A DNA stretch of 64,000 nucleotides, from assembly GCF_000264455.2 (NCBI RefSeq), contig NC_017956.1, forward strand, positions 124,001 through 188,000, given 5' to 3'. This DNA comes from Tistrella mobilis KA081020-065 (GTDB lineage: Bacteria; Pseudomonadota; Alphaproteobacteria; Tistrellales; Tistrellaceae). A model generated the notes under the pieces. That model did not search any database. It was not told the DNA's origin and was given only the letters and a program-made list of their open reading frames with translations. The translations under genes and the position numbers were made by a program. Shown here piece by piece: positions 9,695 through 11,712 of the stretch (position 1 is the stretch's first letter; every line of letters starts with the position of its first letter).

Positions 9695-10383
9695 GCCGCC
9701 GTGGCCGTGGGCGGCGGCTGGGCGGCGCATCGGCAGGGGGACCGCGACGGCGCCCCTGGCGGTTGCGCCTGCTGGTCTGGCGCCTGCTGCTGGTGGCGGT
9801 GGGGGCCTGGGCAGCCGGTTTCGTGATCTATGCCGAAACCCTACCGTCCGAAACCCCGCCCGACTGGCGGCGCACCGATGCAATCGTGGTGTTGACTGGC
9901 GGCGCCGACCGGCTGGGGGTGGGGCTGGATCTGCTGGATGCGGGGGCGGCTCCGCGGCTGTTCATTTCGGGTGTCGACCGCCGGGTCGACCTGCCTGGCC
10001 TGCTGAAAGCGTCGGGACGTGAGGCCGCAGACTATGCGGGGCGCGTGGTGCTGGGCTTTTCCGCCGGCGACACGGTGGGCAATGCCCGCGAGACCTGGGG
10101 CTGGGCAGAGGCGCAGGGCGTGCGCTCGATCCGCCTGGTCACGGCGTCCTATCATCTGCCGCGGGCTCTGATCGAGTTTCGCCGTGCCTTGCCGGGGGTG
10201 GAGATCCTGCCCCATCCGGTCATCCCGGAACATGTCAAGCAGGACGGCTGGTGGCGCTGGCCGGGCACGGCCGCGCTGTTCCTGGCCGAGTATCAGAAAT
10301 TCCTGGTCGCCTGGGCGCGGGACTGGCTGCTCCGCAAGCTGTTGCCCTGGCCGGCCGGCATGGTTGACGAGGTCGGGGCATGA
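9691..10383 (+). CDS. YdcF/DUF218-family membrane protein
   Basis: A 230-residue protein starting at GTG 9691, which overlaps the ftsX stop. An arginine-rich N-terminus is followed by a transmembrane segment (about 24-45) and a DUF218 fold with DAIVVLTGGADRL (about 63-75) and the LVTASYHLPRALIEF motif. SanA/ElyC/YdcF relatives act in envelope integrity or lipid-carrier metabolism, but substrates are mostly unproven. Overlap with plsC (ATGA) and its place after ftsX suggest an envelope role. The open frame runs upstream antisense-free into ftsX; coupling favours the GTG. Confidence 0.82.
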   Translation: MSRRGRGRRLGGASAGGPRRRPWRLRLLVWRLLLVAVGAWAAGFVIYAETLPSETPPDWRRTDAIVVLTGGADRLGVGLDLLDAGAAPRLFISGVDRRVDLPGLLKASGREAADYAGRVVLGFSAGDTVGNARETWGWAEAQGVRSIRLVTASYHLPRALIEFRRALPGVEILPHPVIPEHVKQDGWWRWPGTAALFLAEYQKFLVAWARDWLLRKLLPWPAGMVDEVGA

Positions 10384-11102
10384 CTGCGGTGCGGGCGCTG
10401 GTCTTCAGCCTGTTCTTCTATCTCTGGGGCACGGTGATCATGCTGGCGGCCCTGCCCGTCGCCTGGAGTCGGGGGGCGCTCTGGTGGCTGCGCCGGGTGT
10501 GGATCCGGGGGTTCCTGGCGGTGCTGAGGCTGCTGGTCGGCCTCAGGGTCGAGATCCGCGGCCGCGCGCATCTGCCGCCGGAGCCCTTCATCATCGCTGC
10601 CAAGCATCAGTCGATGCTGGAGACTTTCGTGCTGGGCGCGCTTTTCGACCGGCCGGCCTTCGTGCTCAAGCGGGAGCTGACCTCTATACCGGTCTTCGGC
10701 TGGTATCTGAAGCGGGTGGGCATGGTGCCGATCGACCGGGCGCGCGGACCGTCTGCGCTCAGGCGGATGCACACCGCTGCCCGGGCCTGTGCGGCCGAGC
10801 GCCGGCCCCTGATCATCTTTCCCGAAGGCACCCGCCGTGCGCCCGGTGCGCCGCCCGATTACAAGCGCGGGCTTGCCCTGGTGGCGCGGGCCACTCCCGA
10901 TCTGCCGGTGGTGCCGGTGGCGCTCAACACCGGCCTGTTCTGGGGCAAGGGCCTGCTGGACAAGCGGCCGGGGGTGACGGTGATCGAGATCCTGCCGCCG
11001 CTGGCCCCCGGGCTCCAGGGGGATGCGCTGCTCGATGCCGTCGCGGCGGTCATCGAGCCGGCCTCGGCCCGGTTGGCGCATGGATCATCCGGGGAGCGCT
11101 GA
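10380..11102 (+). CDS. plsC: 1-acyl-sn-glycerol-3-phosphate acyltransferase
   Basis: Acylates lysophosphatidic acid to phosphatidic acid at the inner membrane. The 240-residue protein has an N-terminal hydrophobic anchor (about 5-30). The usual HxxxxD motif is KHQSMLETF here (about 76-84), where the acidic residue is Glu, as in many bacterial PlsC variants. The acceptor-binding motif FPEGTRR (about 147-153) follows. It is the last gene of the ftsEX unit; the convergent gap with DnaA-like boxes starts right after its stop. Confidence 0.9.
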   Translation: MTAVRALVFSLFFYLWGTVIMLAALPVAWSRGALWWLRRVWIRGFLAVLRLLVGLRVEIRGRAHLPPEPFIIAAKHQSMLETFVLGALFDRPAFVLKRELTSIPVFGWYLKRVGMVPIDRARGPSALRRMHTAARACAAERRPLIIFPEGTRRAPGAPPDYKRGLALVARATPDLPVVPVALNTGLFWGKGLLDKRPGVTVIEILPPLAPGLQGDALLDAVAAVIEPASARLAHGSSGER

Positions 11103-11277
11103 GGTGATGCGACCATCCACCGCAGTCTGTGGATAACTCTGTGTATGATCTGGGGATCCGTGCGGGCATCCGGGCTGAACAGAGTCTGAGAGTCTTTTTA
11201 ACTCTTTGATCTGAAAAGGAGTCAGCGCCGGCATCCACATGTCGTCCGAAATGTGGATGAAATCCCCGGAGCCGTGT
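11103..11277. other. Candidate replication origin / DnaA-box cluster
   Basis: Intergenic gap between two convergent genes. It holds a perfect DnaA box (TTATCCACA on the minus strand, 11128-11136) and a one-mismatch box (TCATACACA, minus, 11140-11148) spaced 12 bases apart. A further one-mismatch box (TCATCCACA, minus, 11252-11260) and a two-mismatch box (GCATCCACA, plus, 11231-11239) follow. Between them, 11181-11222 is markedly AT-rich with a repeated AGAGTCT and several GATC sites. The layout TGTGGATAAC...GGATCC recalls bacterial oriC regions. No promoter is needed here, so binding sites must serve another purpose. Origin function is inference; strand bias of neighbouring genes gives no support. 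Confidence 0.45.
11232..11259. terminator. Hairpin formed by the two outer DnaA-like boxes
   Basis: CATCCACAT (11232-11240) pairs with ATGTGGATG (11251-11259) across a 10-base loop. It lies 18 bases beyond the stop of the minus-strand thioesterase gene, so it may simply be a 3'-end hairpin of that transcript rather than protein-binding sites. Confidence 0.4.
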
Positions 11278-11712
11278 TCAGTCGATCAGGAAATGTGCGA
11301 TGGCCGAGGCGATCGGGCGCGCCCGGTCTTCCTGCCATGCCGTGGTGTGAACATTGACCACCCGACGGCCCATCTTGGTGATCCGGCTGGTGGCATAGGT
11401 ATCCACGGCCCGGCCCGAGCGCAGATAGTCGATGGTGATGGTGATCGTCTTGGGCACGCGGACCTGCGACATCTCCCAGGTGACGTGGGAGAGGGCTGCG
11501 GTTTCCAGCAGCGAGCCGATGATCCCGCCATGCAGCGCCCGAAGCACCGGGTTGCCGATATGCTCCGGGCGATAGCCCATCCGGAAGACCAGTTCGTCCT
11601 CGACCAGATTGGCGGTGAGGTTCAGGAACCGGGCATAGGGCACCGCCTGGTTCAGGGGCGTGAAGTCGCCGGTGGCGCGCGACCGCTCGATGGCATCCTG
11701 AAGGCTGGTCAT
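11278..11712 (-). CDS. PaaI-family hotdog thioesterase (second of pair)
   Basis: A 144-residue hotdog-fold acyl-CoA thioesterase. The family core LHGGIIGSLLETAALSHV (about 69-86) and the tail ARVxxG-like DTYATSRITKMGRRVVNVHTTAW are clear. It begins at ATG 11712, overlapping the stop of the upstream thioesterase by ATGA, so the two are translationally coupled and probably arose by duplication. Substrate unknown; phenylacetyl- or medium-chain acyl-CoA are typical for the family. Confidence 0.86.
   Translation of the reverse strand: MTSLQDAIERSRATGDFTPLNQAVPYARFLNLTANLVEDELVFRMGYRPEHIGNPVLRALHGGIIGSLLETAALSHVTWEMSQVRVPKTITITIDYLRSGRAVDTYATSRITKMGRRVVNVHTTAWQEDRARPIASAIAHFLID

Follow-up and report, generated by a model that had tools for sequence, protein, structure and literature searches.

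What does a cluster of DnaA boxes do in a short gap between the ends of two converging genes: does it mark the replication origin of the chromosome, or is it a DnaA site of some other kind? The gap in question (175 nt; positions 11103 to 11277) lies in a 64,000-nt stretch of DNA (hereafter, the window; G000:C1:124001-188000), which belongs to contig C1 (3,919,492 bases) of a genome comprising 6,506,598 bases in 5 contigs. It is flanked by the 3' ends of plsC (plus strand) and a thioesterase gene (minus strand) that converge on it; the original prediction had likewise placed it between two gene ends. The features of the locus are as follows.

10380 to 11102, plus strand: plsC-like acyltransferase gene (Pfam PF01553), the recurring neighbor of the box in the class-wide loci.
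11113 to 11166: block conserved within the genus, spanning the two tandem boxes and a hairpin (ATCCAC, 8 nt, GTGGAT) that is weak and predicted by folding.
11128 to 11136, minus strand: perfect DnaA box TTATCCACA (on the plus strand, TGTGGATAA), 25 nt past the plsC stop codon.
11140 to 11148, minus strand: further DnaA-like box TCATACACA with two mismatches, pointing in the same direction as the perfect box and spaced 12 bp from it.
11181 to 11222: AT-rich patch with three GANTC sites (11182, 11190, and 11219), as a whole not conserved.
11231 to 11239, plus strand: DnaA-like box GCATCCACA with two mismatches, which overlaps the left hairpin arm.
11232 to 11259: 9-bp perfect inverted repeat, CATCCACAT / ATGTGGATG.
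11252 to 11260, minus strand: DnaA-like box TCATCCACA, one mismatch, overlapping the right arm of the hairpin.
11278 to 11712, minus strand: 4HBT thioesterase gene (Pfam PF03061/PF13622), converging on the gap.

Most of the sequence elements named in the original prediction were found again. The perfect box is present on the minus strand at 11128 to 11136, and the mismatch counts given for the boxes at 11252 to 11260 (one) and 11231 to 11239 (two) are correct; these two boxes overlap the arms of the 9-bp inverted repeat and can form the hairpin that had been suspected. The box at 11140 to 11148 had been credited with one mismatch but has two. The AT-rich segment (11181 to 11222) is 64% AT, a level attained by 0.13% of the 42-nt stretches of the window, and contains two copies of AGAGTCT, a repeat found nowhere else in the window on the plus strand. 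The GATC sites that were pointed out exist, but they are not enriched (3 in the gap versus an expectation of 2.2 based on the window).

The number of boxes in the window is unremarkable, with two boxes having no more than one mismatch (two or more occurred in 80 of 100 shuffles). The box-cluster score of the gap (i.e., 7) was reached by none of 5,000 first-order Markov resamples of the gap, and 40 other stretches of C1, each of approximately 20 kb, had a top score of 5, except for a score of 12 at a cluster next to hemE. When the surroundings of the nine perfect boxes of the genome were scored, the hemE cluster obtained 10 (in a cropped stretch), the gap 7, and the next, located on C4, 6. Nine perfect boxes in 6.5 Mb compare with 12 for the reversed control; thus, the perfect box of the gap is not part of a general excess. 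Two side observations were made on the same genome: one of the sampled stretches (L014; G000:C1:400001-420000) is a 20-kb island with a G+C content of 34.6%, versus mostly 66 to 71% in the other samples, and weak DnaA-family matches of equal score and frame length occur on two replicons (L034, G000:C1:893627; L035, G000:C4:1796), possibly representing a repeated mobile element.

A class-wide search with plsC covered 387 genomes, of which 348 had a match. Reading was limited to the 90 genomes that ranked highest in plsC similarity, which biases the sample toward relatives, and 22 hand-picked loci from a set of 53 named loci were added. The counts omit G001 and G002, with the genus of the window entered once, and ignore kinship, some genomes sharing a family (e.g., f116, f82, and f31); locus L185, with less than 60 nt covered before the stop codon, was dropped where 109 rather than 110 loci are given. 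Within -60 to +110 of the plsC stop, TGTGGATAA occurs in 22 of 109 loci and its reverse orientation in none of the 109, and allowing up to one mismatch yields 34 loci versus 4 in the opposite orientation. No other 9-mer is as common as the perfect box within the 100 nt that follow plsC (15 of 110 loci), with the subsequent 100-nt steps containing it in 0 of 108, 3 of 108, and 1 of 107 loci, whereas 200 permuted 9-mers were present in that first stretch in a mean of 0.04 loci (maximum, 1). When a single mismatch is tolerated, the count is 25 of 110 loci for the box, versus a mean of 0.93 for permuted 9-mers; the highest permuted values (19 and 18) belong to 9-mers that represent the box shifted by one base, and the next highest is 5.

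The spacing of the two tandem boxes recurs as well. A second box-like 9-mer (up to three mismatches) is positioned exactly 12 bp downstream in 13 of the 34 loci whose box has no more than one mismatch, the same offset as that of the second box of the window, and 12 bp upstream in four of the 34; 96 control offsets (13 to 60 bp on either side) gave a mean of 0.54 and a maximum of 4. Apart from this 12-bp tandem, the box arrangement varies between genomes. The 19 genomes with a perfect box from the class-wide search belong to 15 different families, out of 50 covered by the reading. In the set of 22 named loci, a perfect box is present in this stretch in just three, 7, 9, and 44 nt past the plsC stop (Azospirillum L070 and L072 and a Rhodospirillales metagenome-assembled genome, L069), and none was found near the plsC stop in the rhizobial, rhodobacterial, caulobacterial, and hyphomonad named loci read. 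Farther from plsC, at 231 to 317 nt, perfect boxes in the same orientation were also detected in five loci (four with nrdJ). The original prediction had offered a DnaA-titration site as its second option. The recurrence of orientation, position, and 12-bp tandem across alphaproteobacteria gives good support to a predicted DnaA site outside oriC, which might titrate DnaA, reactivate it, or regulate transcription.

The box is frequently accompanied by nrdJ, encoding a class II ribonucleotide reductase. With the downstream gene defined as the first recognized of five reference genes sought, nrdJ lies downstream on the same strand in 48 of the 109 loci, including 18 with a perfect box, 10 with a one-mismatch box, and 20 with neither. 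These loci hold 18 of the 22 perfect boxes, and the 61 loci without nrdJ hold four perfect and two one-mismatch boxes. Where nrdJ is present, the box is located on average 16 nt (standard deviation [SD], 37) past the plsC stop and 199 nt (SD, 36) ahead of the aligned nrdJ start, and the gene order in several relatives is plsC, nrdJ, GGCT, and then DUF2125, tyrA, or hisC. Loci of four families carry the box without an adjacent nrdJ (those of the genus of the window, G033, G378, and G237). Both G033 and G378 lack nrdJ in the plsC-GGCT order, and GGCT converges on the box. A ribonucleotide reductase gene is not directly downstream of the window gap, on which the thioesterase gene converges instead, and two thioesterase genes separate the gap from GGCT. 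Neither GGCT nor nrdJ matches were found at the plsC locus of G237, where the box could serve the same-strand frame that follows it. G378 shares its family with G176, and both have the box, with nrdJ absent in the former and present in the latter; nrdJ either arrived beside an existing site or left the site behind.

The nrdJ gene of the window genome is located on C4, and the 1,500 bp upstream of its match contain no perfect box and a single one-mismatch box. This C4 region matches 11 records of a plasmid collection, all from rhizobial or methylotroph genera, at 60 to 80% identity; among the five plasmid matches listed, identity is 74 to 77%, and one is annotated there as a vitamin B12-dependent ribonucleotide reductase. 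The open frame of this gene (L177; G000:C4:882717) has 1,227 codons and is longer than the 769-amino-acid plsC-linked nrdJ of Azospirillum. The nrdJ of L069 (3897 to 6713) presumably contains an intein, judging from its motifs, and tblastn spans of 3.4 to 3.7 kb in G035, G359, and G155 (L260, L261, and L267) suggest insertions.

GANTC, which we take to be a CcrM-type site, is enriched in the gap (3 versus 0.11 expected), with the three sites falling within 42 nt and two of them being found in both relatives from the genus. The first 170 nt of the nrdJ loci contain 3.7 GANTC sites per kb, versus 2.1 to 2.2 for two control palindromes. Box-bearing loci (3.5 per kb) are no richer than boxless nrdJ loci (4.3 per kb), and GANTC was rejected as a general mark of the plsC site, the association being weak.

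Conservation was then assessed within the genus (i.e., one label common to the window genome, G000, and to G001 and G002). The gap is 95% and 83% identical in the two other genomes, of which G002 is the more distant. The box block (11113 to 11166) differs at 2 of 54 sites in G002 and 1 of 54 in G001, versus 20 of 66 and 8 of 66, respectively, in the middle of the gap (11167 to 11232), which holds the AT-rich patch (Fisher test, P = 0.0001 for G002 and P = 0.04 for G001). Between 11233 and 11271, 3 of 39 sites differ in G002, all within the hairpin loop, with the stem unchanged. The boxes at 11128 to 11136, 11140 to 11148, and 11252 to 11260 are identical in both relatives, and the first base of the box at 11231 to 11239 differs in G002. 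Against a baseline of third codon positions in plsC (31 of 241 differing in G002), the box block of these three close genomes is only moderately more conserved (P = 0.024 for G002 and P = 0.08 for G001). Within the surrounding 3 kb, which is mostly coding, one or no differences are seen in 30% of 54-nt stretches and two or fewer in 50%, so high identity by itself is not unusual at this locus. Six of the nine perfect boxes of the genome, including those of the gap and hemE, are matched in the perfect-box loci of both relatives. The surroundings of four other perfect boxes, at C1:345564, C1:602121, C1:3892156, and C4:137865, match perfect-box loci in both relatives, and the frame after the C4:137865 box is presumably uvrC, which its translation resembles.

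From the sequence of the site, its position, orientation, spacing, and recurrence, together with an origin-like region elsewhere on the chromosome, we infer that the gap is probably, though by no means certainly, a conserved chromosomal DnaA-binding element outside oriC that would regulate nrdJ in genomes with this gene beside it and serve as a free-standing binding or titration site in the window. DnaA is predicted to occupy the perfect box at 11128 to 11136 with high affinity and then to extend onto the second box 12 bp away. Between plsC and nrdJ, the site would most likely let DnaA adjust the expression of the class II reductase, by analogy with nrdAB in Escherichia coli, whose promoter has three DnaA boxes through which, in the relevant passages of PMC8203912, DnaA is described as raising or lowering expression. 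The lineage of the window does not have nrdJ here, yet its box block varies little, and the site would most likely be free-standing on an origin-proximal part of the chromosome, holding some DnaA. Since no reductase gene is adjacent and both neighbors end in the gap, holding DnaA would be the simplest remaining role. Passages of PMC12371093 state that E. coli DnaA boxes are dense near the origin, that the chromosome is reported to titrate DnaA, and that datA and the DARS sites account for a large fraction of this titration. Counting against this explanation are the rarity of the perfect box outside nrdJ contexts (4 of 61 loci), the 20 of 48 nrdJ loci that are boxless even at one mismatch, and the lack of a perfect box in the 1,500 bp upstream of the nrdJ match on C4.

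The boxes may instead be purely an nrdJ promoter element, in which case the window copy would be a slowly decaying relic left after the loss of nrdJ. This would fit the location of 18 of the 22 perfect boxes upstream of nrdJ (a mean of 199 nt before its aligned start), the placement of nrdJ in several relatives between plsC and GGCT-DUF2125-tyrA-hisC, like the genes beyond the window gap, and the presence of the window genome's own nrdJ on another replicon, in a region matching rhizobial and methylotroph plasmid records. However, loci of four families have a perfect box with no nrdJ alongside, compared with a mean of 0.04 of 110 loci for permuted 9-mers, and in the genomes of the genus proportionally fewer changes fall in the box block than in the middle of the gap; we therefore regard a relic as a serious but rather doubtful explanation.

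A more elaborate version of the DnaA-binding element is that in some alphaproteobacteria the plsC-side site is a dedicated replication-control site, a counterpart of datA or DARS, at which the tandem boxes would bind DnaA and set the timing of initiation; nrdJ, adjacent in many species, would couple the supply of building blocks to the DnaA pool, and the site would outlive nrdJ where this gene is lost. We put this forward tentatively, as a possibility on the unlikely side. That the gap is a datA- or DARS-like site that alters the nucleotide state of DnaA is improbable. Its boxes, a strong one plus several weaker ones, are clustered in noncoding DNA in both tandem and inverted arrangement and share a chromosome with oriC, but beyond the 12-bp tandem the box arrangement differs among genomes.

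An ordinary explanation is that two convergent transcripts share their 3' ends in the gap, with hairpins that terminate them and a chance resemblance to DnaA boxes. The flanking genes are indeed convergent, the 9-bp inverted repeat (11232 to 11259) could be a shared transcript-end hairpin as well as a pair of converging boxes, and a scan of 601 nt detected one weak terminator-like pattern (11171 to 11188), versus 0.2 expected. However, the perfect box lies outside the repeat, no U run follows the repeat, the gap folds only modestly better than shuffled sequences do (z scores of -1.87 and -2.58), and the box sequence, its orientation, and its 12-bp partner recur beside plsC where the next gene is codirectional, all of which makes a shared 3' end quite improbable. 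A search around the gap for sigma-70-type promoters found none. Other candidates for the gap were also rejected, including a known RNA (the single Rfam match scored 13.6 bits, below the gathering score of 53.5, and the plsC-nrdJ regions of nine loci had no Rfam match at gathering thresholds) and a repeated element (a search of its own genome with the gap gave one match at an E value of ≤0.001).

The first option of the original prediction was oriC itself. A denser DnaA-box cluster is present at C1:3739008-3739387, where nine boxes with up to two mismatches occupy the gap between hemE (match start, C1:3739709) and a gene that we take to be PpsR/DUF299-like from its translation; a ParB match lies 15 kb beyond. 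The hemE cluster scores 12, versus 7 for the window gap, among the 40 stretches plus the window (approximately one-fifth of C1), and the two are approximately 316 kb apart with C1 taken as circular. In 20-kb samples, the GC skew is negative between 2.0 and 3.74 Mb and close to zero in the next stretch, up to 3.80 Mb; beyond this point and past the zero coordinate to 1.82 Mb, it is mostly positive, with two stretches at 40 to 80 kb (skews of -0.078 and -0.045) contrary to the positive arm. The running skew sum has a flat and noisy bottom between 3.68 and 3.80 Mb (minimum, 3.795 Mb), so this turn is located only to within about 60 kb. The sampled turn is thus at approximately 3.74 to 3.80 Mb of C1 and not at the window, which has positive skew in each of its four 16-kb quarters (although a few individual 2-kb bins fall below zero) and places the gap on the mostly positive arm. 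Among the long parts of the gap, the one that contains the AT-rich patch varies most; not being conserved as a whole, the patch is a poor candidate for an unwinding element. Passages of PMC4741004 report an oriC near hemE for most Sphingomonadaceae in DoriC and propose the hemE-region gene cluster as a marker of alphaproteobacterial origins. Although a DnaA-box cluster is combined with an AT-rich patch in the gap, the GC skew and the hemE cluster lead us to reject oriC at this locus, and the gap is very unlikely to be the chromosomal replication origin.

The DnaA-binding element that we favor is hemE-proximal wherever both were found on one contig. Six genomes have hemE and the site on one contig (contigs of 3.9 to 4.9 Mb and one fragment of 344 kb), and the distances from the hemE match start to the site are approximately 315 kb in G000 (C1 circular), 341 kb in G002, 384 kb in G254, 243 kb in G033, 96 kb in G035, and 14 kb in G237; this proximity in six of six genomes may only reflect the location of plsC. 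In 13 genomes, each selected because a perfect box accompanies plsC, the 1,500 bp before the hemE match contain a perfect box in 2 cases and at least a one-mismatch box in 11; thus, the box at plsC is often nearer to the consensus than any box there.

To our knowledge, initiation-controlling DnaA sites other than oriC itself have been characterized in just a small number of model species. Our searches of the open-access literature found no paper on a DnaA site beside plsC and none on DnaA-reactivating sites in Alphaproteobacteria, and the papers on DnaA and nrdJ that were consulted do not describe such a site. Present in 15 of 50 families with a fixed orientation and spacing, the plsC-side site is a concrete target for tests, in alphaproteobacteria, of DnaA titration and of a possible control of class II ribonucleotide reductase by DnaA.

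Three known systems can be compared with the locus. The alphaproteobacterial oriC at hemE resembles the gap in having DnaA boxes within a short intergenic region and differs from it in having more boxes and in lying about 316 kb away (C1 circular). The datA, DARS1, and DARS2 sites of E. coli are, like the gap, noncoding box clusters located off oriC on the same chromosome and kept in evolution, but they have defined box sets with flanking or IHF/Fis requirements. The nrdAB operon of E. coli encodes a class Ia enzyme, whereas the gene of the relatives is the class II nrdJ, with boxes beside plsC and approximately 200 nt before its aligned start, and the boxes of the window have no adjacent reductase gene; nevertheless, the nrdJ-bearing relatives share with the nrdAB promoter the presence of DnaA boxes upstream of a ribonucleotide reductase gene.
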